From a virus, in IMG/VR virus record IMGVR_UViG_3300008740_000038, positions 1-27,112 of that record: a DNA stretch of 27,112 bases. One strand, given 5' to 3'. The translations under genes and the position numbers were made by a program. Within the stretch, counting starts at the first letter, position 1. Each line of letters opens with the position of its first letter. The notes beneath the pieces are model-generated. The model had not been told where the DNA came from. It did no database searches and was given only the letters and a program-made list of their open reading frames with translations. Below are positions 546-18,190 of this stretch, one piece after another.

Positions 546-1451
546 TTAGTTAGCACGAGCGGCTAGGAACCAGAGGCTGTAGCCAACTGCGCCGCGCGCA
601 TCCATACCCCAAACAAATTGGTTATCCCAAAACGCGTTGTCGTCACTCGGCGCGGTCTTGCTTACCAGCTCCGGCGATCGACGTAGCTGATAAATCAACG
701 GCTTGATTGGACGACGGGTGTCCATCAGATACCACTGCGCCGGATCCGCAAGCCGTTCCATAACCAACACAGTCGCAGTGTTGCGCAACACGTTGGTTTG
801 CGGCGACGTTCCAGCATCACTCGGGATGAGTTCTGCCTCTAGGATGGTGCGCGCAGTGCGCTCCAATGCGGGTGGCACCACCAGCAGATTCGGACGAACG
901 CCCAGCGGACGGCCATCTTCACCGATAAAGGTGGTCGACATGGCCGAGCGCACAGCCTCATAGTTGGCAGCAGTCAGCGGTGTGGCCGGGAAATCGTTCG
1001 CAACAGCAGCACCGCCAGCAAGCAAGCTGGGATGTGCGGCGTTGAAAAACGACACACCATCGAAACCGAGGTTTGCGCCACCGCCTTCGAGTGCGGCAAC
1101 GGCCAGGTCATCGGGCCACATGGCAGCTTGCTCACCCATCGACTCGAATAGCGGAGCATAAACACCGAGATTGTCATCTTCGATGTCGTCCCGATCCACA
1201 CCAATAGTAAGCTCAAAATGCTGGTTAACCAGCTGGTAGTGGTAGCTATTCAGGTTCTGAATGACACGCGGGCCCAACCATTCGCGCATGGCAGGAATTT
1301 TGGCCATCCAGCCATAATCGTTTTGGCGAGTGCTGCTGGGAACCATCGTGGCGTAATTCTGCCAAGTGGTCTCAGCACGACCATAGGCCGCATGAAATTG
1401 GGTGCTGAACGTCGTTTGCAACGTCCGAATAGTAGCTGGTGTGATTAGCAT
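546..1451 (-). CDS. Major head protein, Mu gpT family
   Basis: This 301-residue protein builds the icosahedral capsid shell. It matches the Mu T major head subunit family along its length: an N-terminal 'TPATIRTLQTTFSTQF' segment, then 'WLGPRVIQNL', the strand pair 'LVNQHFELTIGVDRDDIEDD', a 'FESMGEQAA' helix, the 'FDGVSFFNAAHP' loop, 'LGVRPNLLVVPPALERTAR' and a C-terminal 'FVWGMDARGAVGYSLWFLAAR'. These features and the roughly 300-residue length are those of the family. AAGGAT lies 7-8 bases before the ATG. The gene follows the small decoration protein and precedes the DUF1320 gene, the standard Mu-like order. No truncation or odd residue is apparent. Confidence 0.9.
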   Translation of the reverse strand: MLITPATIRTLQTTFSTQFHAAYGRAETTWQNYATMVPSSTRQNDYGWMAKIPAMREWLGPRVIQNLNSYHYQLVNQHFELTIGVDRDDIEDDNLGVYAPLFESMGEQAAMWPDDLAVAALEGGGANLGFDGVSFFNAAHPSLLAGGAAVANDFPATPLTAANYEAVRSAMSTTFIGEDGRPLGVRPNLLVVPPALERTARTILEAELIPSDAGTSPQTNVLRNTATVLVMERLADPAQWYLMDTRRPIKPLIYQLRRSPELVSKTAPSDDNAFWDNQFVWGMDARGAVGYSLWFLAARAN

Positions 1452-1463
1452 GTTCTATAATCC

Positions 1464-1892
1464 TTAGTTGCTAGCTGGGAATTGCGTCGCAACCCAGGCA
1501 ATGTTGTGCACAGCGTCGTATTCGTACAGGACGCCAACGACCGACACGGCAGCATTGGTCGACACGGTTTGATCATCCTCGCCATAAACCACGGCACCAG
1601 TGTCTGCCAATGCGACAGGTGCAACGAGATCATTTTCCCATGCAAAGATGCCCGACCTGACGTCGCAATTTGCATCGCCAGCAGCGCCAGTTGTATTGTC
1701 TACGGTTTCTTCGGCGCGACCGACCGGCGTAAGGCCGGCTGCCGCGGTAACCGGCTCCAAAAAGCCAGCAGCATTTAGGGCAACGAGCGCCCCTTGATAG
1801 ATGACAACAGCGGCCGCTACGGGTCGCGTGTGACGAAATGCGAAAGGTGCCGCTTTTTCTGCGGTGTCACGCTCAGTAGTTAGCGCAGCCAT
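1464..1892 (-). CDS. Head-decoration-like protein (DUF2190-like)
   Basis: This 142-residue, Ala/Val-rich beta protein lies between the protease/scaffold gene and the major head gene, where many Mu-like phages encode a small capsid decoration or stabilising protein. Visible patterns are an N-terminal 'FRHTRPVAAAVVIYQGALVALN', a central 'VGRAEETVDNT' and a C-terminal 'VVGVLYEYDAVHNIAWV'. The first is typical of decoration proteins that begin with a strand of the form 'I..G.LVALN'. It contains no Lys beyond the N-terminal dozen residues and is acidic, fitting a surface capsid protein. The start at 1892 lies 3 bases after the protease stop. Assignment rests on pattern and synteny, so it is good but not certain. 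Confidence 0.65.
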   Translation of the reverse strand: MAALTTERDTAEKAAPFAFRHTRPVAAAVVIYQGALVALNAAGFLEPVTAAAGLTPVGRAEETVDNTTGAAGDANCDVRSGIFAWENDLVAPVALADTGAVVYGEDDQTVSTNAAVSVVGVLYEYDAVHNIAWVATQFPASN

Positions 1893-1895
1893 TGT

Positions 1896-2378
1896 TCAAC
1901 CTGCCTTTTTGGTTTTGGTATTGATTTGCTCGCGCTTGCGCTCAGCAATGAACGCCTCCCGCGATACGTTGGGCATAAGCGACAAGACATGCTCGTCCTC
2001 ATCGCTCAGCATAATCGATGCTTCCTTGGTATCGTCTACGGTTTTGTTTTCGCTAGTCGCGGTCGGCGCGCAGTCGCCAAACGACTTGACCTGGTCAAAG
2101 CTCAGGGTGCGAAGGAATGCATGGATGCTCGGCGGTGCCTTGCCTTCTTTGCTGAGCTTTGCGATCAAAGCATCGCGTTGCGAAGTGACTTTCTCTGCTT
2201 CCAATTCGGCAACGCGCTGGGCCAGCTCGATGCTTTTAGCAGAGCTATCCTTTAGCTCATTAATGTTAGCCAGAACGTCTGCCAATGTTTTTGCACCAGG
2301 TACAGCCGACAAAAGTCGTGTGGCCTGCTGTGCAACTTCCGCCTCGCTTTCGAGGCCGAATAGCTTGAGTAGATGCAT
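1896..2378 (-). CDS. Nested in-frame scaffold protein, possible internal start (gpZ-like)
   Basis: Within the protease gene an in-frame ATG at 2378 (residue 196) is preceded by AAGGA ten bases upstream. It marks exactly the switch from the protease domain to the charged helical scaffold region. The product would be 160 residues starting MHLLKLFGLESEAEV. In phage Mu the scaffold gpZ is made from an internal start in gene I in this way. The internal ribosome binding site is visible; that it is used is inferred from the Mu precedent. If it is used, most scaffold would be made free of the protease domain. Confidence 0.55.
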   Translation of the reverse strand: MHLLKLFGLESEAEVAQQATRLLSAVPGAKTLADVLANINELKDSSAKSIELAQRVAELEAEKVTSQRDALIAKLSKEGKAPPSIHAFLRTLSFDQVKSFGDCAPTATSENKTVDDTKEASIMLSDEDEHVLSLMPNVSREAFIAERKREQINTKTKKAG

Positions 2379-2963
2379 GCTTTCGGTTTCCTTATTCGCC
2401 AATGGCGGTGTTTGTTCAATACTATCACCAGCGTTTTCGCTGGCAACAAGTGGGATCTGGTCCTTTGTAGCAGGCAAATTTGTAAGTGCTACATTCACAA
2501 GCCGAGTGATTCTATAGGCCTTATCATCTTCATTATCGCCGATATTAATCGGATTGGCCATGTCGACGTCGAATGCTGGCGAATAGTGCCTAAATTCCCT
2601 ATGTTTTAGCATACTTACAGCCCTCGGTGTCCACTCAACATTAGCTGCTACCAAGCTGCCATCCACGATAGATGGGGTAAACCAGCCCGCCGCGCTAGAG
2701 CTTTCTGCCGATGGCTTGCCGCTCAGCATGCCATGATCATAGTCGATAGGAAGCTGGGCCATGCCGTGGTCGCCATAGGCCTGCATAACTAGCGCAGCAG
2801 AAACATCGTCGAACATAAAGTTCCCCTTGCTTGTGCGCATGACGCCCTTAGGGAATATTACGAACGAGTCTGCTGGGCTATCGTCCTCGTTATCATCGGA
2901 TACAAATAGAAGGTCGCTGGCGTGAATCAGCCTGGTCATCGGCCCCTTTTTTTTCTCTACCAT
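1896..2963 (-). CDS. Prohead protease/scaffold precursor, Mu gpI family
   Basis: This 355-residue protein is the head maturation protease of Mu-like phages. In the family the N-terminal part is a serine protease that removes scaffold after prohead assembly and the C-terminal part acts as scaffold. The likely catalytic His lies in 'LPIDYDHG' (residues 71-78) and the likely Ser in 'FRHYSPAFDVD' (124-134). From about residue 196 the sequence becomes a charged, helical, coiled-coil-like region ('LAQRVAELEAEKVTSQRD') ending in a basic tail, as expected for scaffold. The stop of the preceding minor head gene abuts this ATG directly (TAAATG), so translation is coupled. An internal start for a separate scaffold is described in its own entry. 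Confidence 0.85.
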   Translation of the reverse strand: MVEKKKGPMTRLIHASDLLFVSDDNEDDSPADSFVIFPKGVMRTSKGNFMFDDVSAALVMQAYGDHGMAQLPIDYDHGMLSGKPSAESSSAAGWFTPSIVDGSLVAANVEWTPRAVSMLKHREFRHYSPAFDVDMANPINIGDNEDDKAYRITRLVNVALTNLPATKDQIPLVASENAGDSIEQTPPLANKETESMHLLKLFGLESEAEVAQQATRLLSAVPGAKTLADVLANINELKDSSAKSIELAQRVAELEAEKVTSQRDALIAKLSKEGKAPPSIHAFLRTLSFDQVKSFGDCAPTATSENKTVDDTKEASIMLSDEDEHVLSLMPNVSREAFIAERKREQINTKTKKAG

Positions 2964-3662
2964 TTATATCCCTGATATTTCTGCTTTGTTAATAAGCTCT
3001 CGAAAGGAGGCTGGGTCGTATTTGTCGGGCGATGGCTTCCAATCTGCGAAGTTGGATTTACGTGGGCTATCACCGAAACCTGGCTGGGGGTCTGGGCGGG
3101 TTGGCCAGTGGCCTATCCCTCTACGCTTGGCTTGCTTTTTGGTTAGTGGTCGAACGCTTGATCTGCAATTGTAATGCAAAGGAGGCCAGTTGCTGTCCCA
3201 CCACGGATCATCGGATTTCCTTACTATACCGTCCCGTATTTTGCAATATACACTAGTTCTATCGTCTAGAACAGCATCATACATCCTATAGGGCCTAGAT
3301 TGCATCATGTCTGGCTGTTCCATTTGATGCCATCTACCAGCATTGTACGCGGTCTGAACGGCCATAAACCAGATAAGACGCACGCGGTATGGCATCTCAC
3401 CACCCCATGCCTCGTATAATTTATCCTCTACACGCGCAGCGAATTCGTCATACGGGATGCCAAGCTCTATGCTTCTGGTTATTTCGTCAAATACGTCCTG
3501 CACCAAACCAAGCTGGGCCACGTTAGAAATCCAAAAAGCGTGTTTCTTTGCGTCCTCTCGTATGGCAGCTAACTCATCATCCGTTATTGGTGTTCGGGCA
3601 ATATGCCAGGCTATGGCCTCCTCGAATTTTGCGCCAAGTATGTCGGACTTTGGCCTAGCCAT
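2964..3662 (-). CDS. Minor head protein, Mu gpF-like head morphogenesis family
   Basis: This 232-residue protein carries the signature of the Mu F-like head morphogenesis family: 'VQTAYNAGRWHQM' in the middle, then 'YRMYDAVLDDRTSVYCKIRDG', and 'WPPLHYNCRSSVRPLTKKQ' near the C-terminus. The C..H..C pattern (Cys in 'VYCKI', His/Cys in 'LHYNC') is conserved in this family and often proposed to bind metal. The role is assembly of the portal vertex and possibly protection of the injected DNA end. At 232 residues it is shorter than Mu F (over 400), but many F-like proteins are this size. Its ATG overlaps the portal stop (TAATG), the standard gene order. Confidence 0.85.
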   Translation of the reverse strand: MARPKSDILGAKFEEAIAWHIARTPITDDELAAIREDAKKHAFWISNVAQLGLVQDVFDEITRSIELGIPYDEFAARVEDKLYEAWGGEMPYRVRLIWFMAVQTAYNAGRWHQMEQPDMMQSRPYRMYDAVLDDRTSVYCKIRDGIVRKSDDPWWDSNWPPLHYNCRSSVRPLTKKQAKRRGIGHWPTRPDPQPGFGDSPRKSNFADWKPSPDKYDPASFRELINKAEISGI

Positions 3663-5167
3663 TATAGCTCATCTACGACAGCGAACCTTCCGGCCAGCTC
3701 GCTAAGAACAATAGCCTTCTCGAATAGCTCAACAAAACCAGCGTCGCTCATGTTTGCGTATGCTTCGCGCAGGTTGAGCTTTAGCTCATCATAGCCGTTG
3801 CTTTTTTTGACTATGTCGACTACTTCCTGCAATCCAATTTTGTCTTTGCTAAGCCTGACACCCTCGTCCGTCATATCGTCTACATAGAGCTGTCCCTCGA
3901 CGAAAGCTCTATTTGTATCGCCGCTGGCTAGGCGCATGCTTGTCTCTTGCTGGATAGGCTCTATAGCAGCAGGCTGCGGCAAATCTGTTCTCGACACACC
4001 GAAGCGCTCTATGCCGTCTATCTGAAGGCCAACCGCATTAAGCTGGGCTACTGCCCGGCCCAAATGCTCTAGCGTCTCGGCGTCCATTTTTAGATCTACT
4101 GGTGGGTCTACATCCCAATGAGGCCACGGTACGTCATCTAAATCGCCACCATAGTTGTACTTAAACCACCATTCGAGCATTTGTACGCGCAACTCTGTGC
4201 TGAGCACCTGGGCGTCGCCCTCGGTTCGCTCTCGCTTCACCTCTCCGCCAACCTGTGCAGCAGCTAAACTCCCGCTGTCAATTTGCGTGGTCAGGTTGTT
4301 GCCAGTGAGAGTGATCGCCATAGAGTCATCAACATGGCGTATTAGGTCCTTGAAGCCATCACTGTTCTGGTCTGTAGCCTCTAACAACCGCAAATCGAAC
4401 TTGGCGCCATCCTCGTCAACATTGGTAGGCAGCTGGATTGTGGTCTCAGTAGACAATACACGGATGTCTTCTTGGAACTGGTCTTTCTCTAGCTCGGAGC
4501 TAACGCTTGGTACATCAGCCAAAATGATAGGCATGCCATGGCGCTCGCTATAGCGGGCCCAATCTCTCACAGCGAATTGCCGCACCAGCCACGGGATTGC
4601 CATGCAGCGTACTAAGCCGTTCATCCATGGCTCATCGCCGCGGCCAAGGACAACCCACTTGCCGTCGCTACCGTCCATCGGTACTTTTATATTACCGTCG
4701 CGGGTTGTTAGATAATAACAACGCTCCTCACGATAGGCCCAGGCCCATTGCATGTTCCATACTTTTAGACGTGGTATCCACTCTGAGTCTGTGCGCTCCC
4801 ACACTATCTCAGCTATTGCGACACCCATCATCAGGTACCATCGCAATAGCTCAGACAAAGTCGCCTCACCGGCTCCTCTCCACCACCAGCTTTCGGCGCT
4901 TTCGGCAACCTCTGCTGCCCTACTGCTGTCATCCTGACCAGGTAGCATGCTGAAGCTAGACCGCATAAGAGAGTTTATGCGTGTAGCCAATACAGCTGCG
5001 AACCGATCATCTCGGCCCATAGCGTCTACCAATTTAGCTGCTTCATCGAAGTTGCCGACTTCGTGAGCATTCAGGGCGCTACGCACAGAGTTAACCGACC
5101 AGACAGGGCGGATGCCAGGCGTCCAGGGAACATAAACTCGGCGCTGTTGCTCACGTGGTGATGGCAT
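3662..5167 (-). CDS. Portal protein, DUF935 (Mu gp29-like) family
   Basis: This 501-residue protein forms the dodecameric portal through which DNA is packaged and ejected. It has the DUF935 order of motifs: N-terminal 'MGRDDRFAAVLATRINSL', 'ESWWWRGAGEATLSELLRWYLMMGVAIAEIVW', 'PRLKVWNMQWAWAY', the 'RDWARYSERHGMPIILA' segment typical of this family, 'LLEATDQNSDGFKDLIRHVDDSMA', and 'LTTQIDSGSLAAAQVGGEVKRE'. Length is within the usual 450-530. It overlaps the preceding zinc-finger gene by 17 bases and the following F-like gene by one base. No key part appears missing. Confidence 0.88.
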   Translation of the reverse strand: MPSPREQQRRVYVPWTPGIRPVWSVNSVRSALNAHEVGNFDEAAKLVDAMGRDDRFAAVLATRINSLMRSSFSMLPGQDDSSRAAEVAESAESWWWRGAGEATLSELLRWYLMMGVAIAEIVWERTDSEWIPRLKVWNMQWAWAYREERCYYLTTRDGNIKVPMDGSDGKWVVLGRGDEPWMNGLVRCMAIPWLVRQFAVRDWARYSERHGMPIILADVPSVSSELEKDQFQEDIRVLSTETTIQLPTNVDEDGAKFDLRLLEATDQNSDGFKDLIRHVDDSMAITLTGNNLTTQIDSGSLAAAQVGGEVKRERTEGDAQVLSTELRVQMLEWWFKYNYGGDLDDVPWPHWDVDPPVDLKMDAETLEHLGRAVAQLNAVGLQIDGIERFGVSRTDLPQPAAIEPIQQETSMRLASGDTNRAFVEGQLYVDDMTDEGVRLSKDKIGLQEVVDIVKKSNGYDELKLNLREAYANMSDAGFVELFEKAIVLSELAGRFAVVDEL

Positions 5168-5447
5168 CGGCTATAGCCTCCTCGGCTTTTGCTGCTCTTC
5201 TATTCTGTTTTCGTAGGCGATATTCGCACTTCCTAGAGCATGTAAGGCGGTCTGGCCTGGCCCACTCATCATTGCATATGATGCAAGCCACCGCGCTTTC
5301 GCTAGAGCTAGTGCGCTTTTCATAGCATGTAATACATAACACAGTGCCGTCGTCAGCTAAATAGACTTCTGCGCTCCTATTGAACGCAGCATTGCATTGG
5401 CTATTTTTGCAGCGGCATCGACTCCCCACTCTTACCTTAACCCACAT
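5151..5447 (-). CDS. Small Cys-rich zinc-finger protein between terminase and portal
   Basis: This 98-residue protein is not recognised as a known family. It contains four Cys clusters: C-x-C and a further Cys in 'SRCRCKNSQC', CxxC in 'VLCITC', CxxC in 'VACIIC', and CxxxC in 'LTCSRKC'. Two zinc sites are therefore likely, followed by a very basic helix ('EYRLRKQNRRAAKAEEAI'). That layout suggests binding of nucleic acid or of the terminase. A good ribosome binding site, GGAAGGAAC, precedes the ATG. It lies 13 bases after the large terminase stop and overlaps the portal start by 17 bases, so it is co-expressed with packaging genes. A packaging accessory role is inferred only from position. Confidence 0.7.
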   Translation of the reverse strand: MWVKVRVGSRCRCKNSQCNAAFNRSAEVYLADDGTVLCITCYEKRTSSSESAVACIICNDEWARPDRLTCSRKCEYRLRKQNRRAAKAEEAIADAITT

Positions 5448-5460
5448 AAATTGTTCCTTC

Positions 5461-6849
5461 CTACATTCTGCGCTTCATTCCTGGCGCTTTCTTTCTCGTA
5501 TTGGTGCGGCGCTTATACAATACACGATGCGCGCTCGCTATAGCGTCTACCTCGTCATCCCTTGCATCGTTTATACCCGTGAAGTTTTCCATAACCTCTA
5601 GAAAATCGAACAGCCATGGCGCATCAAAAGCGGTCGGATCTGGCACCAGTATGTTTCCGCTATTCCAAGCAGCTGCGCATTCCTGCGCCCTAACGAACTT
5701 GTCAGTAGTAGTCGTTCTAAATTCCAAGCGCTGCACCCTGCGCTTTATGAACTGTACAGAACCTTTCTCGACACCCGACCCAATAAACAACATACGGCCG
5801 GGGTACTTCCTGGCTGCCGATACAAGAGACAAAGTGAACTCAGGAGCCTCTACCTGCTTGCTGATGCAATCTATTACATAAAACTTATCGCCAAACCTGC
5901 CCATCGTTATGCATACGCTATGATCGGCCCTGGTCTTGCTTGTATAGGCTAGGTCTACGCCGTGAGAATACTGCAGCTGCTTTGGCAACTCGGTATAAAA
6001 ATGGGGCGCATTAAAGACCGACCCGCCCCGCTTGCGCGGCCTGCCTTGGAATAGGGAATCAGAACCATAGGCGCCAATGGTGGCCATACGGTCTAGCAAC
6101 ACTTCCTTTGTCCAGCCTATGTCTGGCGCAAGCGGCTCGCCCTCTTGCCTGCCGTCCTCGTCGCCGGGTTCAGCTATGGCGCGACGGGTTACGCCGCTCC
6201 ACCCTTCTTTGTTTGCCCTACCTATCGGATCATCTGGATGCCATCTTGTATGAACTAGGAACACCGAGCCATCGGGCGTAAGCCTGGTTAGTATGTCATC
6301 CGTTATGCTGTCCCATACTTTATCGCGTACAGTTGGGCTCTCAGCTTCTGCTCGGTTCTTGATCGGGTCGTCTACATACGCCCTATTGAAGCCGCGACCC
6401 GTCACCTCTCCGCCGATGCCGCGAGCCACCAGGCCGCCGCCCTCGGCGGTCATCCACTCTGCTGCCCTATTGCTATCGCCCAGCTTAACGCCTGCCTGCT
6501 TTGCGAGCCTCCTGGCTCGCTTGCTCTGCTTCACAGCGAACGTGGCCGTGTGTGTCATATATAGTATGTGGGCCGTGGGGTCGCGCCGAAGTGTGCGCGC
6601 TATGTCGTGCAAGATTAGCTCAGACTTGCCATGCCGTGGCGGCACAGTAAACCATAGTTTGCATGGCCCATGCTCAGCCGCATCCATAGCCCATGCCAAC
6701 TGCCATAGCCATGTAGGCGATAGCAACTCAGGCGATAGCCAGGGGATGAAGTCCAGGACGCTAGTGGACGACGCCTTCAGCCTCGATAGCGCGCGCTGCG
6801 CTAACTCTTGCCAGCTCGGATAGCAGGGCTGAATATGACCGCTCATCAA
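5461..6849 (-). CDS. terL: Terminase large subunit (ATPase plus nuclease)
   Basis: This 462-residue protein is the motor that pumps DNA into the prohead and cuts it. The ATPase domain has a Walker A 'PPRHGKSE' (residues 70-77) and an acidic 'RAYVDDP' (about 156-162) in the Walker B position, with the coupling-type segment 'VFLVHTRWHPDD' after it. The C-terminal nuclease is RNase H-like: 'GVDLAYTSKTRADHS' (about 297-311) gives the first catalytic Asp and 'DDEVDAIASAHRVLY' near residue 430 gives the last acidic pair. The ATG at 6849 overlaps the small terminase gene by 89 bases, unusually long for this genome. No other ATG precedes the conserved core, but a shorter non-ATG start cannot be excluded. 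Confidence 0.92.
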   Translation of the reverse strand: MMSGHIQPCYPSWQELAQRALSRLKASSTSVLDFIPWLSPELLSPTWLWQLAWAMDAAEHGPCKLWFTVPPRHGKSELILHDIARTLRRDPTAHILYMTHTATFAVKQSKRARRLAKQAGVKLGDSNRAAEWMTAEGGGLVARGIGGEVTGRGFNRAYVDDPIKNRAEAESPTVRDKVWDSITDDILTRLTPDGSVFLVHTRWHPDDPIGRANKEGWSGVTRRAIAEPGDEDGRQEGEPLAPDIGWTKEVLLDRMATIGAYGSDSLFQGRPRKRGGSVFNAPHFYTELPKQLQYSHGVDLAYTSKTRADHSVCITMGRFGDKFYVIDCISKQVEAPEFTLSLVSAARKYPGRMLFIGSGVEKGSVQFIKRRVQRLEFRTTTTDKFVRAQECAAAWNSGNILVPDPTAFDAPWLFDFLEVMENFTGINDARDDEVDAIASAHRVLYKRRTNTRKKAPGMKRRM

Positions 6850-7210
6850 GAACCCTTTCTGCAGCCTGTATAAACTCTCGTTTTGTTTCTTCTATAGTTG
6901 CTTCGATCTCAATACGCTGTGTGACTTTGCCATCTATGCGATCGAATATCTCATGCAAATGGTTGAACTTACCTTTAGCTGCCTCATGAATTAGCTTCTT
7001 TACAACTATATCTGCTAGTTGCCCGTCGTTCTTTGATAGCGCAGCTCTAAGCCTATTCGTTAGATTAACGCTGCCTTTGGGCCTGCCTCCGGGGTTGCCG
7101 CTTTGGCCTTTCTTCCACCTATGCTCTTTAGGCGGCACAAACCCACTACGCGGAGAAGCTCCTTTTGCTAGTTTCTTTGCTTGCTTCTCAGGTTTGCTAT
7201 CCTTTGGCAT
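6761..7210 (-). CDS. DUF5681-type, probable small terminase subunit
   Basis: This 149-residue basic protein has the hallmark 'KKGQSGNPGGRPKGS' at about residues 34-48, characteristic of DUF5681 proteins, which are often encoded directly before the large terminase. The following helical part ('NRLRAALSKNDGQLADIVVKKLIHEA', 'EIFDRIDGKV') fits a small oligomeric DNA-binding subunit that recognises the packaging site and hands DNA to the large subunit. The N-terminal 30 residues are Lys-rich and probably disordered. It starts inside the end of the methyltransferase gene (14-base overlap) and runs 89 bases into the large terminase gene. The packaging role is inferred from family habit and position. 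Confidence 0.75.
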   Translation of the reverse strand: MPKDSKPEKQAKKLAKGASPRSGFVPPKEHRWKKGQSGNPGGRPKGSVNLTNRLRAALSKNDGQLADIVVKKLIHEAAKGKFNHLHEIFDRIDGKVTQRIEIEATIEETKREFIQAAERVLDERSYSALLSELARVSAARAIEAEGVVH

Positions 7211-8339
7211 TGGCTATCCTTTTGGCTTTGCCATTGGTCAAATTCTCCCAACGCTCAACGATGACGTCGCAATAGCTCGCAGAAAGCTCGAGGCCATAGC
7301 ATATACGATTTAGCTGTTCTGCAACGACGATGCTGGTACCAGAGCCGAGGAACGTATCCAATACAAGGCCGCCAGTATTTGGCATGCCTCGGGCCATAAG
7401 CCATGACCACAGCTTGATAGGCTTGGGGCATGCATGATCTACATCAGGCGATGCCGTATTGCAGCTAAATGCGTCGGGCCTGCGTCCCCTGCCTTGCATC
7501 AGGTATGGGTCTTTACCGTATGCAAGGATAGGCTGCCACGAGCAAAAGCCCCACTCGCATGACGTAACCGCTCCTGGGATATGCCAACACAATGTCCAGC
7601 TTGGCTCTGGGTAGTCATACTGCCTACCAGCTCCACACGTCAGCATAACTACGTCGCATAGCTCGCGCGCCATCGGCAAGAACGAACCAATTAGCTGGCG
7701 CATGTTGCCCCGGCTATCGTCGAAATCAGCGTTGTGATTGAGATCTACCCCATAGGGCGGATCAGTTAAACATAGCTCAGCATGATCACGGTCGCCCATG
7801 GCAAACATAACGTGGTCTCTATTCGTGCTATCGCCACACAGCAGGCGATGGTCGCCAAGCTGCCACAGGTCACCGGGCTGCGTCACAGGTTTAGCTGGCG
7901 CATGCGGCACCTCGTCTTCTTCTATGTCATCTATGCCAGTTAGCTCGGATACGAGCTTATCCAGCTCTTTTTCGCTATAGCCTATAGCCTCTAACAACTC
8001 CTCGTCGTCTATGGCAAGCGCGCTCAATTGCTCGGATAAAGCGGCATCATCCCACTCAGCTAGCTCTGCTGTCCTATTGTCAGCGATAGCGTATGCGATG
8101 CGTTCACTACCCCCCAGCGCTGTGCGCACTATGTGGATGCTATCCCAGCCAAGCTCACGAGCAGCATGCAAGGTCCCATTGCCAGCGACCACCACACCGC
8201 CCTCATCTACCACAATAGGCTTTTGTTGACCGAACCTGACCAGGCTCGCCTTTATAGTCTCTATGTTCCGCTGCCCATGCTTACGCACGTTCGCAGGGTC
8301 GTTCACCAGCTCCTCAATCCGAGCCGCCATAGTCCGCAT
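7197..8339 (-). CDS. ParB-like domain fused to N4/N6 DNA methyltransferase
   Basis: From the ATG at 8339 this is a 380-residue protein with two domains. Residues ~5-95 match ParB/Srx-like nuclease domains ('NDPANVRKHGQRNIETI', 'VVAGNGTLHAARELGW', 'AYAIADNRTAELAEWD'). Residues ~155-380 are an amino-methyltransferase of beta order: catalytic 'LTDPPYG' comes first (about residue 193), then the AdoMet-binding 'LDTFLGSGTS' near the end. It would methylate adenine or cytosine amino groups in DNA, probably protecting phage DNA or marking a packaging site. It is the first gene of the leftward unit. A GTG at 8357 could add six residues, but neither start has a Shine-Dalgarno site and the promoter at 8346-8354 places the transcript start at the 8339 ATG, so I chose that. 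Confidence 0.85.
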   Translation of the reverse strand: MRTMAARIEELVNDPANVRKHGQRNIETIKASLVRFGQQKPIVVDEGGVVVAGNGTLHAARELGWDSIHIVRTALGGSERIAYAIADNRTAELAEWDDAALSEQLSALAIDDEELLEAIGYSEKELDKLVSELTGIDDIEEDEVPHAPAKPVTQPGDLWQLGDHRLLCGDSTNRDHVMFAMGDRDHAELCLTDPPYGVDLNHNADFDDSRGNMRQLIGSFLPMARELCDVVMLTCGAGRQYDYPEPSWTLCWHIPGAVTSCEWGFCSWQPILAYGKDPYLMQGRGRRPDAFSCNTASPDVDHACPKPIKLWSWLMARGMPNTGGLVLDTFLGSGTSIVVAEQLNRICYGLELSASYCDVIVERWENLTNGKAKRIANAKG

Positions 8340-8345
8340 ATCGCG

Positions 8346-8354
8346 ATGATAGCA
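8346..8354 (-). promoter_or_regulatory. Extended -10 promoter for the leftward packaging/head operon
   Basis: On the minus strand TGCTATCAT is an extended -10 element (TGn plus TATCAT, 5 of 6 matches to TATAAT). The six bases CGCGAT separate it from the ATG at 8339, so transcription should start at or next to the A of the ATG and give a leaderless mRNA. No good -35 is seen, as is usual for extended -10 promoters. The same spacing recurs at 23127-23135. Confidence 0.5.
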
Positions 8355-8387
8355 CACCCCAAAATGAGTCAGCTAAAACGAGAAATA

Positions 8388-8406
8388 GTTAAAGTAAAAC
8401 TTTAAC
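8388..8406. promoter_or_regulatory. Perfect operator-like dyad GTTAAAGT-aaa-ACTTTAAC
   Basis: Two exact 8-base arms flank a 3-base centre, giving a 19-base palindrome. Its centre lies about 58 bases upstream of the predicted leftward start at 8339, a position more typical of an activator or an upstream repressor site than of a promoter-occluding operator. Candidate binders encoded in the window are the HTH protein at 12537 and the winged-helix protein at 18304; which one is unknown. Confidence 0.6.
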
Positions 8407-8545
8407 AATCGATACAAAAGTTGGGACAGTTGGGACAAAAAAAAAGAACAACAATTTCAACCACTTAGGTCTAGTTGGGACAGTTGGGACAGCAGTTGGG
8501 ACAGGGCTAATACGGCGTAATAATTAAGGTTTTCTACTTTGCTGT

Positions 8546-8625
8546 CCCAACTATGGGATTTTTTCTAGTGCAGTAACTTTCTAAAATTTAAAAACCCCCG
8601 TACACGAAAAATTCCCATAGTTGGG
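8546..8625. repeat. Inverted repeat CCCAACTATGGGA / TCCCATAGTTGGG
   Basis: Two 13-base arms at 8546-8558 and 8613-8625 are exact inverse complements, separated by 54 bases that include an AT-rich stretch (8567-8590). Each arm contains part of the GTTGGGACA element joined to TATGGGA. The separation is the same as that between the two tandem element pairs to the left. The AT-rich centre could act as an unwinding segment. Confidence 0.6.
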
Positions 8626-8680
8626 CCACCCAGATAGAAAAGCTTAATGATAGCGCGCACATAACCCCGGCCCAACTACC

Positions 8681-8706
8681 TGTCCCAACTTTCGCTAGTT
8701 GGGACA
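8681..8706. repeat. Inverted pair of array elements, 10-bp stem with 6-base loop
   Basis: TGTCCCAACT and AGTTGGGACA are perfect arms around the loop TTCGCT. It could be a bound dyad in double-stranded DNA or a hairpin in single-stranded DNA, the latter a common form of a primosome or initiator site. There is no T-run after it, so a terminator is unlikely. Confidence 0.6.
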
Positions 8707-8768
8707 CCCACGCAATTCCGCGCACTTACACCCGTCCCAGCCTGTCCCAACTCCAAACGCCCCAGCGC

Positions 8769-9007: not shown

Positions 9008-9036
9008 TTGACATGTGGGCGCAGCCGCACCATATT
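9008..9036 (+). promoter_or_regulatory. Sigma70-type early promoter
   Basis: A perfect -35 box TTGACA (9008-9013) is followed after 17 bases by CATATT (9031-9036, 4 of 6 matches to TATAAT). The predicted start is near 9043, giving a leader of about 270 nt before the first gene at 9316. This is the best sigma70-like promoter seen ahead of the early operon. Confidence 0.6.
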
Positions 9037-9043
9037 GGTCCTG

Positions 9044-9297
9044 GGCGCAGAGATGCGCCGGGGGAAAATATCCCCAGCCAGCACAGAACAAGGGTTACGA
9101 CCCCAGGATCGGCGGTGCGCAACGTGCGACCCGACGAGCCAAGATCGGAGTTGTCCCTGCCCACTTTCGCAACCTTGTAACGCTAGCCGTGTTCGGCTGT
9201 CCTAGGCAGCCGACCACCAGACCTAGCGCATCAACAAAGCGGGAACGGGACCACGCCGCTTACGGCCAAGAAGGTCGCGGCCCTTGTTCTGTGTTGG
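9044..9297 (+). ncRNA. Candidate structured leader RNA closed by a 25-bp helix
   Basis: Positions 9078-9102 can pair with 9273-9297 over 25 positions: 21 Watson-Crick pairs, three G-U wobbles and one A-C mismatch. The first 17 pairs are unbroken. Inside, CGCTAG (9181-9186) pairs with CTAGCG (9223-9228) and encloses a hairpin TCGGCTG / CAGCCGA (9193-9199 / 9207-9213). A further perfect stem GGCGCA-gaga-TGCGCC (9044-9059) lies at the predicted transcript 5' end. The closing helix ends six bases before the AAAGGAG site of the first gene. The pairing is seen in the sequence; a regulatory role is inferred. Confidence 0.5.
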
Positions 9298-9315
9298 AAT
9301 TTGAAAGGAGCAAGC

Positions 9316-9579
9316 ATGCACACCAAAACCAACTCAATCCGTAACCTGCTCGCTGATGCCGCGCTTACCACGCGCGGGCGGTCCGTCCCGCATGGTCCCA
9401 ACCTGTTCGGCGATTGCGTGTGGTCCGCTGTGATCCTTGACCTTGTGCGCGAACGCAACGCCGCCACTGGCGGACACCGGTGCGACGACACCGGCCTGCC
9501 ATGGTCGGCCGAAACCCTCGCGGCCGCGGCCGGCGCCAGCCTGCCATGGGCCAGCGTCACTAGCCAGGAGCAAGCATGA
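9316..9579 (+). CDS. Hypothetical protein, first gene of the early operon
   Basis: This 87-residue protein starts MHTKTNSIRNLLADAALTT and is of no family I recognise. The start is fixed by AAAGGAG at 9303-9309, six bases before the ATG; an in-frame TTG further upstream at 9301 lies ahead of that site and is not preferred. The sequence has a short helical N-terminus, a central Cys-poor stretch with 'FGDCVWSAVILDLVRERNA' and an Ala-rich end. It is the promoter-proximal gene after the structured leader, so its translation is the one most directly exposed to that leader. Its stop overlaps the next start as ATGA. Early-operon first genes in phages are often host-takeover or regulatory proteins, but nothing in this sequence proves that. 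Confidence 0.65.
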   Translation: MHTKTNSIRNLLADAALTTRGRSVPHGPNLFGDCVWSAVILDLVRERNAATGGHRCDDTGLPWSAETLAAAAGASLPWASVTSQEQA

Positions 9580-9758
9580 AATACAAGATACTAGACACAG
9601 TCGCCACCCCTTCGCCCCAGCGCGAAGCCGAGACCCTGTCCGCATGCCTGGCGGCCGATCGCGGCGTCGGCAGCCAGGTGCTGCGAATCGACAGTCACAC
9701 ATGGGACGTCGCTGCCGACGATGGCCGCGCGATCCGTTTCACGAGCATGGGCGCGTGA
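9576..9758 (+). CDS. Small hypothetical protein
   Basis: A 60-residue acidic protein starting MKYKILDTVATPS, not recognised. It overlaps the preceding stop (ATGA) and has AGGAG at 9566-9570. The 13-base start context AGGAGCAAGCATG is identical to that of the preceding gene. The pattern of alternating strands ('SQVLRIDSHTWDVAADDGRAIRF') suggests a small beta protein. Coding status rests on the ribosome binding site and the overlap. Confidence 0.6.
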   Translation: MKYKILDTVATPSPQREAETLSACLAADRGVGSQVLRIDSHTWDVAADDGRAIRFTSMGA

Positions 9759-15649: not shown

Positions 15650-16152
15650 AGGAGCGCGAGCTTTTGCGGGCTATACGCCTGGCCGTTGGCGGCCGTGGCG
15701 ACGTCGTATTGTGGCGCAACAGCACAGGGGTTGCGCAATACAAAGACAGCCATAGGGTACCGTACGGACTATGTCCTGGCGCAGCCGACTTGATAGGCAT
15801 CATCAAGCCGCATGGGTCCTTCTTGGCTATCGAAGTGAAAACCAAAACCGGTCGCCTGTCTAAGGACCAAAAAAGCTTCCTGCGACTGGTGGAAAAAAGC
15901 GGCGGGGTAGCTGGGGTGGCGCGATCTGTAGCAGAGGCACACGACATCGTAGACAGTGCAAACCGAGCGACAACGCTCGCTGGTGACGAGCTGGATGTGT
16001 TGGAATTTGTACGCCGTAGATTGATGGATGGCAAACGAGCATACGGCCAGCTGAATCTAGCCGAGGACAAGCGCAATTGGGAGAACGAGCTGGCCGCAGA
16101 ATTGGTAGACGCTATTCTGTATATAGGATTTAAAAATGCTGAGCGCTCTTGA
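15646..16152 (+). CDS. VRR-NUC nuclease with extra C-terminal helical domain
   Basis: A 168-residue protein starting at GTG 15646, which overlaps the previous stop (GTGA) and has TAAGGGG eight bases upstream; GTG 15637 is less likely. The N-terminal ~105 residues are a VRR-NUC PD-(D/E)XK nuclease: 'VVLWRNSTGVAQY', 'CPGAADLIGI' (catalytic Asp), 'FLAIEVKTKTGRLSKDQKSFL' (E-x-K) and 'GGVAGVARSVAEA'. These nucleases act on junctions or flaps. The last ~50 residues ('VLEFVRRRLMDGKRAYGQL', 'ENELAAELVDAILYIGF') form a separate helical unit with an ExxxExxxD rhythm somewhat like MazG-type proteins. It ends inside the primase gene. Confidence 0.8.
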   Translation: MKERELLRAIRLAVGGRGDVVLWRNSTGVAQYKDSHRVPYGLCPGAADLIGIIKPHGSFLAIEVKTKTGRLSKDQKSFLRLVEKSGGVAGVARSVAEAHDIVDSANRATTLAGDELDVLEFVRRRLMDGKRAYGQLNLAEDKRNWENELAAELVDAILYIGFKNAERS

Positions 16153-18190
16153 TGAGTCTATGTTGTCGTATGCGCTGGGATACGCGGCCAGGGGATGGCC
16201 CGTCTTTCCTTTGCATAGCATATCAAACGGTAGATGCAGCTGCGGCAAGCGGCTGTGCCCTAACGCTGGCAAACACCCGCGCACCCTGAGCGGCCTAAAA
16301 GACTCCACAATAGACGGCGCAAAAATACGCAGCTGGTGGAAGCGATGGCCTACCGCAAACATTGGCATAAGGACCGGCGCTGGCCTAGTTGTATTAGACG
16401 TAGATGTGGCAAAGGGTGGTGACAATAGCCTAGAGAAACTGACCGAGCTAGGCGACCTTGGCGACACGATCACGGTTAAGACTGGTGGCGGTGGTTACCA
16501 TTGGTATTTTGCTACAGATAGGCCGGTAAAATGTAGCGTATCCAAATTGGCACCAGGTATCGACGTACGCGGCGAGGGCGGTTATGTGGTGGCGCCACCG
16601 AGCAACCACGCCAGCGGTGACCAGTACGCCTGGGAAGGTTTTATAGACGTGCATACTGGCGAGGGTAGCCTGAGCCCTTGCCCACCATGGCTGCTTGCGC
16701 TTGCAATCGATGCGCGCTCGAAACGATCGGACGTCGATCCATACCGAGCACAAGCGTTTATAGCATCCACTCGCAACAACGCTCTAACAAGCATGGCTGG
16801 CACAATCCGCCGACGCGGCGCTGGGTATGAGGCAATCCTGGCGTTACTGGAGACGATGAACCGCGAAAAGTGCCGACCACCACTTGATAGCTCAGAGGTC
16901 CAGCGGATAGCGCGCAGTGTGGCGAAATACGAGCCTGCAGATCCTATACTCGGTACAGTCGAAAGGCACGGCGGAGACGCGGACGACGACGATAGCTGGC
17001 GCAAAGCTCTAGTACTTACAAAGGAAAATAAGCTGGCTAAAACCGCAGGCAACGCGTCGCTGCTAATGTTGCATAGCACTGGGTGGAAAGGCTGCCTGGC
17101 TCAGAACACCTTCGAAAACGAAGCACAGTGGGTTAAGCGGCCGCCGCATATACCTGGGGCGGAAATGCTGACCCCACAGCTTGGCCCAATAGCAGAAACA
17201 AATACGGTTTATGTGCAACAGTGGATAGCACACACACACAAGTGCACGATAGGCCGTGAGGCTTTATGGCAGTCTATCAAGACGGTCGCAACAACTCAGG
17301 ACATACACCCTGTGCGCGAATGGCTCGACTGCATCGAGTGGGACGGCAAGCAAAGAGTCAAGTCGTGGCTGCCACTGTGTCTAGGCACAGTAGATAGCAA
17401 ATACACCAGGGACATAGGGCAAGCATGGCTTGTGTCTGCAATAGCTCGCATCATGCGCCCAGGGTGCCAGGCTGACCATGTCCTGGTCCTAGAAGGCGGC
17501 CAAGGCACAGGCAAATCTACGGCCATGCGAACACTGTTTGGCGATGAGTGGTTTTTGGATTGCCTGCCCGATATTCGCCATAAAGATGCGCTAATGGTCA
17601 TGCGTGGAAAATGGGGTATCGAGGTTGCCGAGTTGGATAGCTTCCGCGGCGCTGCTGAAACTAGGATCAAATCCTTTATTACACAGCGTATTGACGAGTA
17701 TCGGCCGTCACACGAGAGGCAAGTTGTCCGCTATCCCAGGCAATGTGTCATCGTAGGCACTACAAACGAAGAAGACTGGCTAACCGATTCCACTGGTGGA
17801 CGCAGGTTCTGGCCGATCAAGGTTGGCAAAATAGATCTCAAAAAAATAGAAGCCGAAAGGTCTCAGCTATGGGCTGAGGCTGCGCACCTTTACAACGCTG
17901 GGGCTATATGGTGGCCAAAGGGTGAGCTTGCCAAGCTGGCCAAAAAGCAACAATCTCAGCGTCACACACATGATGTATGGCAAGACCTAATAGCGTCTAC
18001 AGACTCCACATCACTGGATGCTGATTATGTCTATCGCACGATATTGGGTATTGAGCCTGGGCGCATAACCAAATCCGACCAGGTGCGAGTCGGCGCTGTC
18101 ATGCGCAGGTTGGGATATAAAAAAATCAGGAGGAGGCGAAATGGTGTACGAATCACAGCGTATGAAAAGCCGAAAAATGATCATCAATAG
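16136..18190 (+). CDS. PrimPol-VapE primase/helicase fusion
   Basis: A 684-residue replication protein. Residues 1-185 are a bifunctional primase/polymerase domain: Cys-rich 'CSCGKRLCPNAGKHP', catalytic 'VVLDVDV' (D88, D90), 'GGGGYHWYF' with the catalytic His, and 'GIDVRGEGGYVVAPPS'. Residues ~205-265 match a PriCT helical domain. From ~350 a VapE/D5-like superfamily 3 helicase follows: 'VREWLDCIEWDGKQR', Walker A 'GGQGTGKST' (454-462), 'KWGIEVAELDSF', and 'VIVGTTNEEDWLTDSTGGRRFWP'. It should synthesise primers and unwind DNA at the origin. It overlaps genes at both ends. This fusion is common in phages and mobile elements, and here it is the likely replication initiator. Confidence 0.92.
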   Translation: MLSALDESMLSYALGYAARGWPVFPLHSISNGRCSCGKRLCPNAGKHPRTLSGLKDSTIDGAKIRSWWKRWPTANIGIRTGAGLVVLDVDVAKGGDNSLEKLTELGDLGDTITVKTGGGGYHWYFATDRPVKCSVSKLAPGIDVRGEGGYVVAPPSNHASGDQYAWEGFIDVHTGEGSLSPCPPWLLALAIDARSKRSDVDPYRAQAFIASTRNNALTSMAGTIRRRGAGYEAILALLETMNREKCRPPLDSSEVQRIARSVAKYEPADPILGTVERHGGDADDDDSWRKALVLTKENKLAKTAGNASLLMLHSTGWKGCLAQNTFENEAQWVKRPPHIPGAEMLTPQLGPIAETNTVYVQQWIAHTHKCTIGREALWQSIKTVATTQDIHPVREWLDCIEWDGKQRVKSWLPLCLGTVDSKYTRDIGQAWLVSAIARIMRPGCQADHVLVLEGGQGTGKSTAMRTLFGDEWFLDCLPDIRHKDALMVMRGKWGIEVAELDSFRGAAETRIKSFITQRIDEYRPSHERQVVRYPRQCVIVGTTNEEDWLTDSTGGRRFWPIKVGKIDLKKIEAERSQLWAEAAHLYNAGAIWWPKGELAKLAKKQQSQRHTHDVWQDLIASTDSTSLDADYVYRTILGIEPGRITKSDQVRVGAVMRRLGYKKIRRRRNGVRITAYEKPKNDHQ

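Follow-up and report, generated by a model that had tools for sequence, protein, structure and literature searches.

An array of GTTGGGACA iterons between divergent gene modules of a tailed phage: a candidate SaPI/PICI-like replication origin

What can nine copies of one nine-letter word be doing in a single gap between the genes of a phage? In the window, that is, the whole stretch of 27,112 nt analysed here, the word GTTGGGACA occurs nine times at 8420-8751, on the + strand at 8420, 8429, 8474, 8483, 8495 and 8698, and on the - strand at 8543, 8681 and 8743, and no further exact copy is found in the rest of the window. As the first-pass annotation had claimed, this clustering in both orientations is beyond chance: 0.13 copies are expected on both strands of the whole window, and none of 100 shuffled windows reached nine. 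The gap separates leftward head genes from rightward replication genes. The leftward genes at 546-5167 encode a major head protein, a head maturation protease and a portal of phage type. We consider that the array is a theta origin like those of SaPIs and PICIs, read from a remote position by the phage's own PrimPol-VapE protein through its winged helix, and the probability we give to this reading is roughly 0.77. The parts of the array are the following, with the state of each in a close relative, L011.

8420 to 8751, no strand assigned: iteron array with nine exact GTTGGGACA, proposed replication origin on the grounds of copy count and recurrence beside VapE genes
8420 to 8437, + strand: outer left abutting iteron pair; only one exact copy of L011 aligns here
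8474 to 8503, + strand: inner left iterons 8474, 8483 and 8495; all three exact in L011
8495 to 8551, no strand assigned: left core pair 8495+ / 8543-, 48 bp apart; 47 bp in L011, with one mismatch in the - site
8552 to 8619, no strand assigned: AT-rich dyad centre, candidate DNA unwinding element; the richest 50 bp, at 8570, are 72% AT
8620 to 8676, no strand assigned: right core pair 8620+ (GTTGGGCCA) / 8668- (CGGCCCAAC), degenerate, 48 bp apart; both exact in L011, 47 bp apart
8681 to 8751, no strand assigned: outer right iterons 8681-, 8698+ and 8743-; of these, 8681- and 8698+ are exact in L011
8494 to 8690, no strand assigned: imperfect inverted repeat with the AT-rich segment at its middle; arms 75% complementary

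How is the array organized? The abutting pairs 8420/8429 and 8474/8483 are offset by exactly 54 bp, and the copies 8681- and 8698+ form a 10-bp stem with a 6-nt loop (8681-8706), both as first noticed. Beyond the nine exact copies there are the two variant sites, 8620+ and 8668-, the latter with two mismatches to GTTGGGACA, and since these degenerate sites complete a second core pair, the layout becomes symmetrical: iterons, a '+ / -' pair 48 bp apart, the AT-rich centre, another '+ / -' pair 48 bp apart, and iterons again. The AT-rich segment reported beside the array is likewise real, with 42% GC at 8400-8699 against 54% over the whole window. Folded as single-stranded DNA, 8494-8690 gives z = -6.3. 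An Rfam search returned no match at gathering scores, and weak miRNA and nhaA-I matches over the dyad were taken as chance hairpin matches. The cumulative GC skew has its minimum at 9648, about 1 kb from the array; because this point coincides with the divergence of the genes, it is weak evidence for an origin. It is also to be mentioned that a candidate structured RNA of 291 nt lies at 9040-9330 (fold z -5.8, closed by a long stem), following a promoter-like site at 9008-9036 and within the leader of the rightward genes. It has no Rfam match, and two contigs that carry a 19-mer of it looked like unrelated coding sequence.

Is the array kept in other phages? In L011, the one close relative found, the array is kept, and the left-hand genes match those of the window with 79% DNA identity over 3990-8364. 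Identity is 73/81 inside the exact GTTGGGACA sites versus 178/251 in the spacers between them, and both variant sites of the window are perfect GTTGGGACA there. The replication genes of L011 are out of view because its contig stops about 420 bp past the array. Compared with phages by blastn, the array yielded chance pieces only. Paired copies of the word itself were sought in 2.9 million viral contigs. At least four copies within 600 bp were found at 53 loci, which fall into 17 groups unrelated at the DNA level, including L011, with a locus GC of 40-71%; matches with two or three copies are left out of this count. In 12 of the 17 groups the array stands beside a replicative helicase gene, usually within 200 bp 3' of it, and the core-pair layout, '+ / -' pairs 42-48 bp apart around an AT-rich centre, is found in several unrelated lineages besides the window. 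The first-pass annotation had proposed looking for such clusters beside PrimPol-VapE genes of related phages, and would have taken a lack of conservation there as a refutation. The repeats are in fact conserved in L011, and in unrelated phages they recur beside VapE and other initiator helicase genes.

The neighbour is VapE in seven groups (L004/L005, L014/L068, the L017-L107 group, L028, L029/L059, the L054 group and L374), and in these the array is usually found 3' of the VapE stop codon at a distance of 4-70 bp. Some members of the L017-L107 group have it 1.8-4 kb 3' of VapE, so that adjacency is not obligatory. Other arrays stand close to or at the 3' end of AAA_25 helicase genes (L010, L016/L046, L087), of a DUF927 protein gene (L009) and of a DUF5906 protein gene (L002/L379). 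The arrays of L046, L010 and L087, placed at the 3' ends of genes for RecA-fold AAA_25 primase-helicases, have the same word as the VapE arrays. No neighbour is assigned in the remaining five groups, which are L003, L007, L019 and L112, together with L011, whose contig ends too early. Of nine array or relative records checked for VapE at other places in the contig, two have such a gene. How much of this could come from chance? Scanned as a control, the reversed word ACAGGGTTG gave 55 contigs, none with more than five copies in 600 bp; the real word gave 107 contigs and as many as nine copies. As ten control loci have four or five copies, the weight rests on neighbours and layout and not on copy number alone, and of the 17 groups, a few that have four or five copies may be something other than origins. 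One 46.6-kb contig (L112, L133, L108) carries GTTGGGACA-N4-TGTCCCAAC hairpins at about nine scattered places, which looks like a dispersed hairpin element rather than an origin.

The question can also be put from the side of the protein. From 160 VapE loci fetched by protein alone, a sample weighted towards Pseudomonas and Alphaproteobacteria, the 500 bp 3' of VapE were examined. The top repeated 7-mers in these flanks are GTGGGAC (33 of 156 loci), TGGGACA (24) and TGGGACG (19). On the 5' side, not one of 154 flanks has three copies of TGGGACA. Repeats of exact GTTGGGACA occur in only three of the VapE loci, and thus the protein-first result backs the family of words rather than the exact one. 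Strong 3' iteron families, defined by a score that exceeds six shuffles by a fixed margin, are present in 27 of 69 dereplicated loci, and consensus words from the VapE loci and six named phages include GGTTGGTGAC, GGTTGGGAC, AGGTTGGAC, AGGTGGGAAC, ACTGGGAACA, GGTAGGGAC and GGTAGAACA. Individual VapE records show TGGGACA ten times (Lacticaseibacillus JB1P3), GGGACAAC five times (Corynebacterium Dina), CTGCAACA nine times (Paenibacillus Logan) and TGATGCAA six times (Staphylococcus phiSa2wa_st30), while Ruegeria V7 and Javan168 have no 3' iterons and Bacteroides BU2-2 no convincing ones. Iterons 3' of VapE are frequent, not universal. None of the VapE records inspected has an annotated origin.

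Which protein, then, would read the word in this phage? Proteins of the PrimPol-VapE kind are widespread among phages, satellites and prophages, and 1405 phage records match that of the window or one of its domains.

16136 to 18190, + strand: PrimPol-PriCT-VapE protein, 684 aa, proposed initiator helicase (Pfam PF09250, PF08708, PF05272; fold match 7PDS)
17924 to 18172, + strand: its C-terminal winged helix, residues 597-679, proposed iteron-binding domain (AlphaFold2, block pLDDT about 74-89)

Pfam finds Prim-Pol (E 7.5e-43), PriCT_1 and VapE (E 7.6e-78) in this protein. In the AlphaFold2 model residues 284-684 are well predicted, the PrimPol part poorly, and the best solved match of the model of 284-684 is SaPI PriRep1 with dsDNA (7PDS; Z 32.4, rmsd 6.1 over 387 residues), spanning both the AAA+ helicase and the C-terminal winged helix. 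As a homologue of SaPI PriRep1, the PrimPol-VapE protein of the phage is a strong candidate for the initiator that would recognize GTTGGGACA. SaPI Rep itself reads the iterons of the origin downstream of its gene via its C-terminal domain (PMC7581432), and a rep-ori segment of EcCICFT073 supports plasmid replication (PMC6092414). No initiator of the Rep_3 type, whose gene would sit beside the iterons in an iteron plasmid replicon (Rep_3, RepA), was matched by Pfam among the 13 proteins of the window that were scanned. Because a search of viral contigs with the single protein found no relatives, an alignment of 16 proteins was used as the query. The closest relative found, L199, is 39% identical and has no TTGGGAC within the 11 kb covered. 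At 118-321, about 2.7 kb upstream of its PrimPol-VapE gene, L199 has six direct repeats of GTCGCAGTGG, possibly its own origin.

If the array is an origin, what kind is it? Phage P4 offers one comparison: its alpha protein is a primase-helicase initiator that acts with short iterons, GGTGAACAG, at two separated cis sites, ori and crr. The word GGTGAACAG resembles GGTNGGNACA. The window differs from P4 in having no second array. Near-inverted copies of one array do stand 5 kb apart in L009 (8545-8635 and 13603-13693), one 3' of an integrase gene and the other 3' of the DUF927 helicase gene, which recalls ori and crr. The closest likeness is to the pri-rep-ori modules of SaPIs and PICIs (PriRep1, PDB 7PDS; SaPI5 primase-helicase, PDB 7OLA), which likewise combine a primase and an AAA+ helicase with a C-terminal winged helix, and in which two iteron sets flank an AT-rich region as in the window (PMC6092414, PMC7581432). 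The primase of these elements is fused to the helicase or encoded beside it; in the window it is fused, as Prim-Pol plus PriCT_1. Their origin lies directly downstream of rep, whereas our array lies 7.4 kb upstream of the PrimPol-VapE gene, between divergent modules of a tailed phage, and the 3' flank of that gene has no TGGGAC repeats. Cch2 of SCCmec (D5 type) also binds direct repeats downstream of its gene via its C-terminal domain (PMC7581432), and SCCmec Cch is a DUF927-type helicase; DUF927 and DUF5906 genes are among those that carry GTTGGGACA arrays here. For Cch2, however, the reported iterons number only three, of 5 nt each, and its helicase branch is unlike VapE. In pRN1, an archaeal plasmid, ORF904 is likewise a PrimPol fused to a helicase, and the minimal replicon includes 166 bp of downstream sequence (PMC4234260). 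The locus looks functional and is largely explained by a known kind of origin. What sets it apart is its unusual position and its word: among the matches listed, our literature search found no description of GTTGGGACA as an iteron. The first-pass annotation knew of no described initiator with this site; with PrimPol-VapE a homologue of a described initiator can now be proposed.

The first-pass annotation had left the choice between an origin and a cooperative switch. Two genes of the window bear on this and on a related alternative.

7197 to 8357, - strand: gene for a ParB-like/DNA methyltransferase protein, to the left of the array and in the same synteny in L011
12537 to 12749: Cro-like HTH gene, 70-aa protein

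A switch would mean that a phage repressor or Cro-like protein, such as the 70-aa HTH protein, controls divergent promoters via the repeats. The divergent position of the array and the presence of such a gene would suit this, as would a promoter-like match that overlaps iteron 8495, the better match being that at 9008-9036. However, the same arrays in other phages sit 3' of helicase genes, homologues of the HTH protein occur in only 16 loci and at scattered distances, and the dyad around an AT-rich centre suits an origin better, so that layout and recurrence together favour the origin and make an operator array unlikely. The array may still act as a switch in addition to being an origin. Could the word instead be a partition or methylation site of the ParB-domain/methyltransferase protein? 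That gene adjoins the array and keeps its place in L011, but its homologues are not consistently beside the arrays of other phages, and GTTGGGACA is no palindrome, unlike parS; such a role seems very improbable.

A subtler alternative accepts the origin and assigns its binding to another phage protein or a host protein, a shared third factor that would explain why one word stands beside VapE, DUF5906, DUF927 and AAA_25 genes. Helicases of such different families beside GTTGGGACA arrays do invite this thought, and among VapE loci the similarity of iterons tracks that of C-terminal domains poorly (rho 0.09, reached in 115 of 1000 permutations); with helicase-core identity the correlation is significant (rho 0.28, 0 of 500 permutations). 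Yet the iteron words of VapE loci are different but related, a pattern to be expected of co-evolving initiators but not of a single conserved host factor, and SaPI Rep reads its own iterons (PMC7581432). We regard a third factor as rather improbable. It is conceivable, though doubtful, that GTTGGGACA is an origin word common to VapE, DUF5906, DUF927 and RecA-fold AAA_25 initiators, that origins and initiators are exchangeable, and that the origin of the window has moved away from its initiator gene.

How might the SaPI/PICI-like origin, which we prefer, work? From the layout, its recurrence and the homology, we infer that binding, melting and the start of replication all take place at the array. 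The C-terminal winged helix of PrimPol-VapE would bind the GTTGGGACA iterons that flank the AT-rich centre, and helicase rings, two hexamers by analogy with SaPI Rep, would assemble there. The rings would then melt the centre, from which bidirectional replication would start, with the fused PrimPol making the primers. The word and its layout turn up next to helicase genes in many unrelated phages, and so the word family (roughly GGTNGGNACA) together with a dyad that has core pairs 42-48 bp apart would make many VapE-type origins predictable by computer. With a recognizable word family and layout, the specificity of initiators would become directly testable, as would any competition for origins between satellites and helpers.
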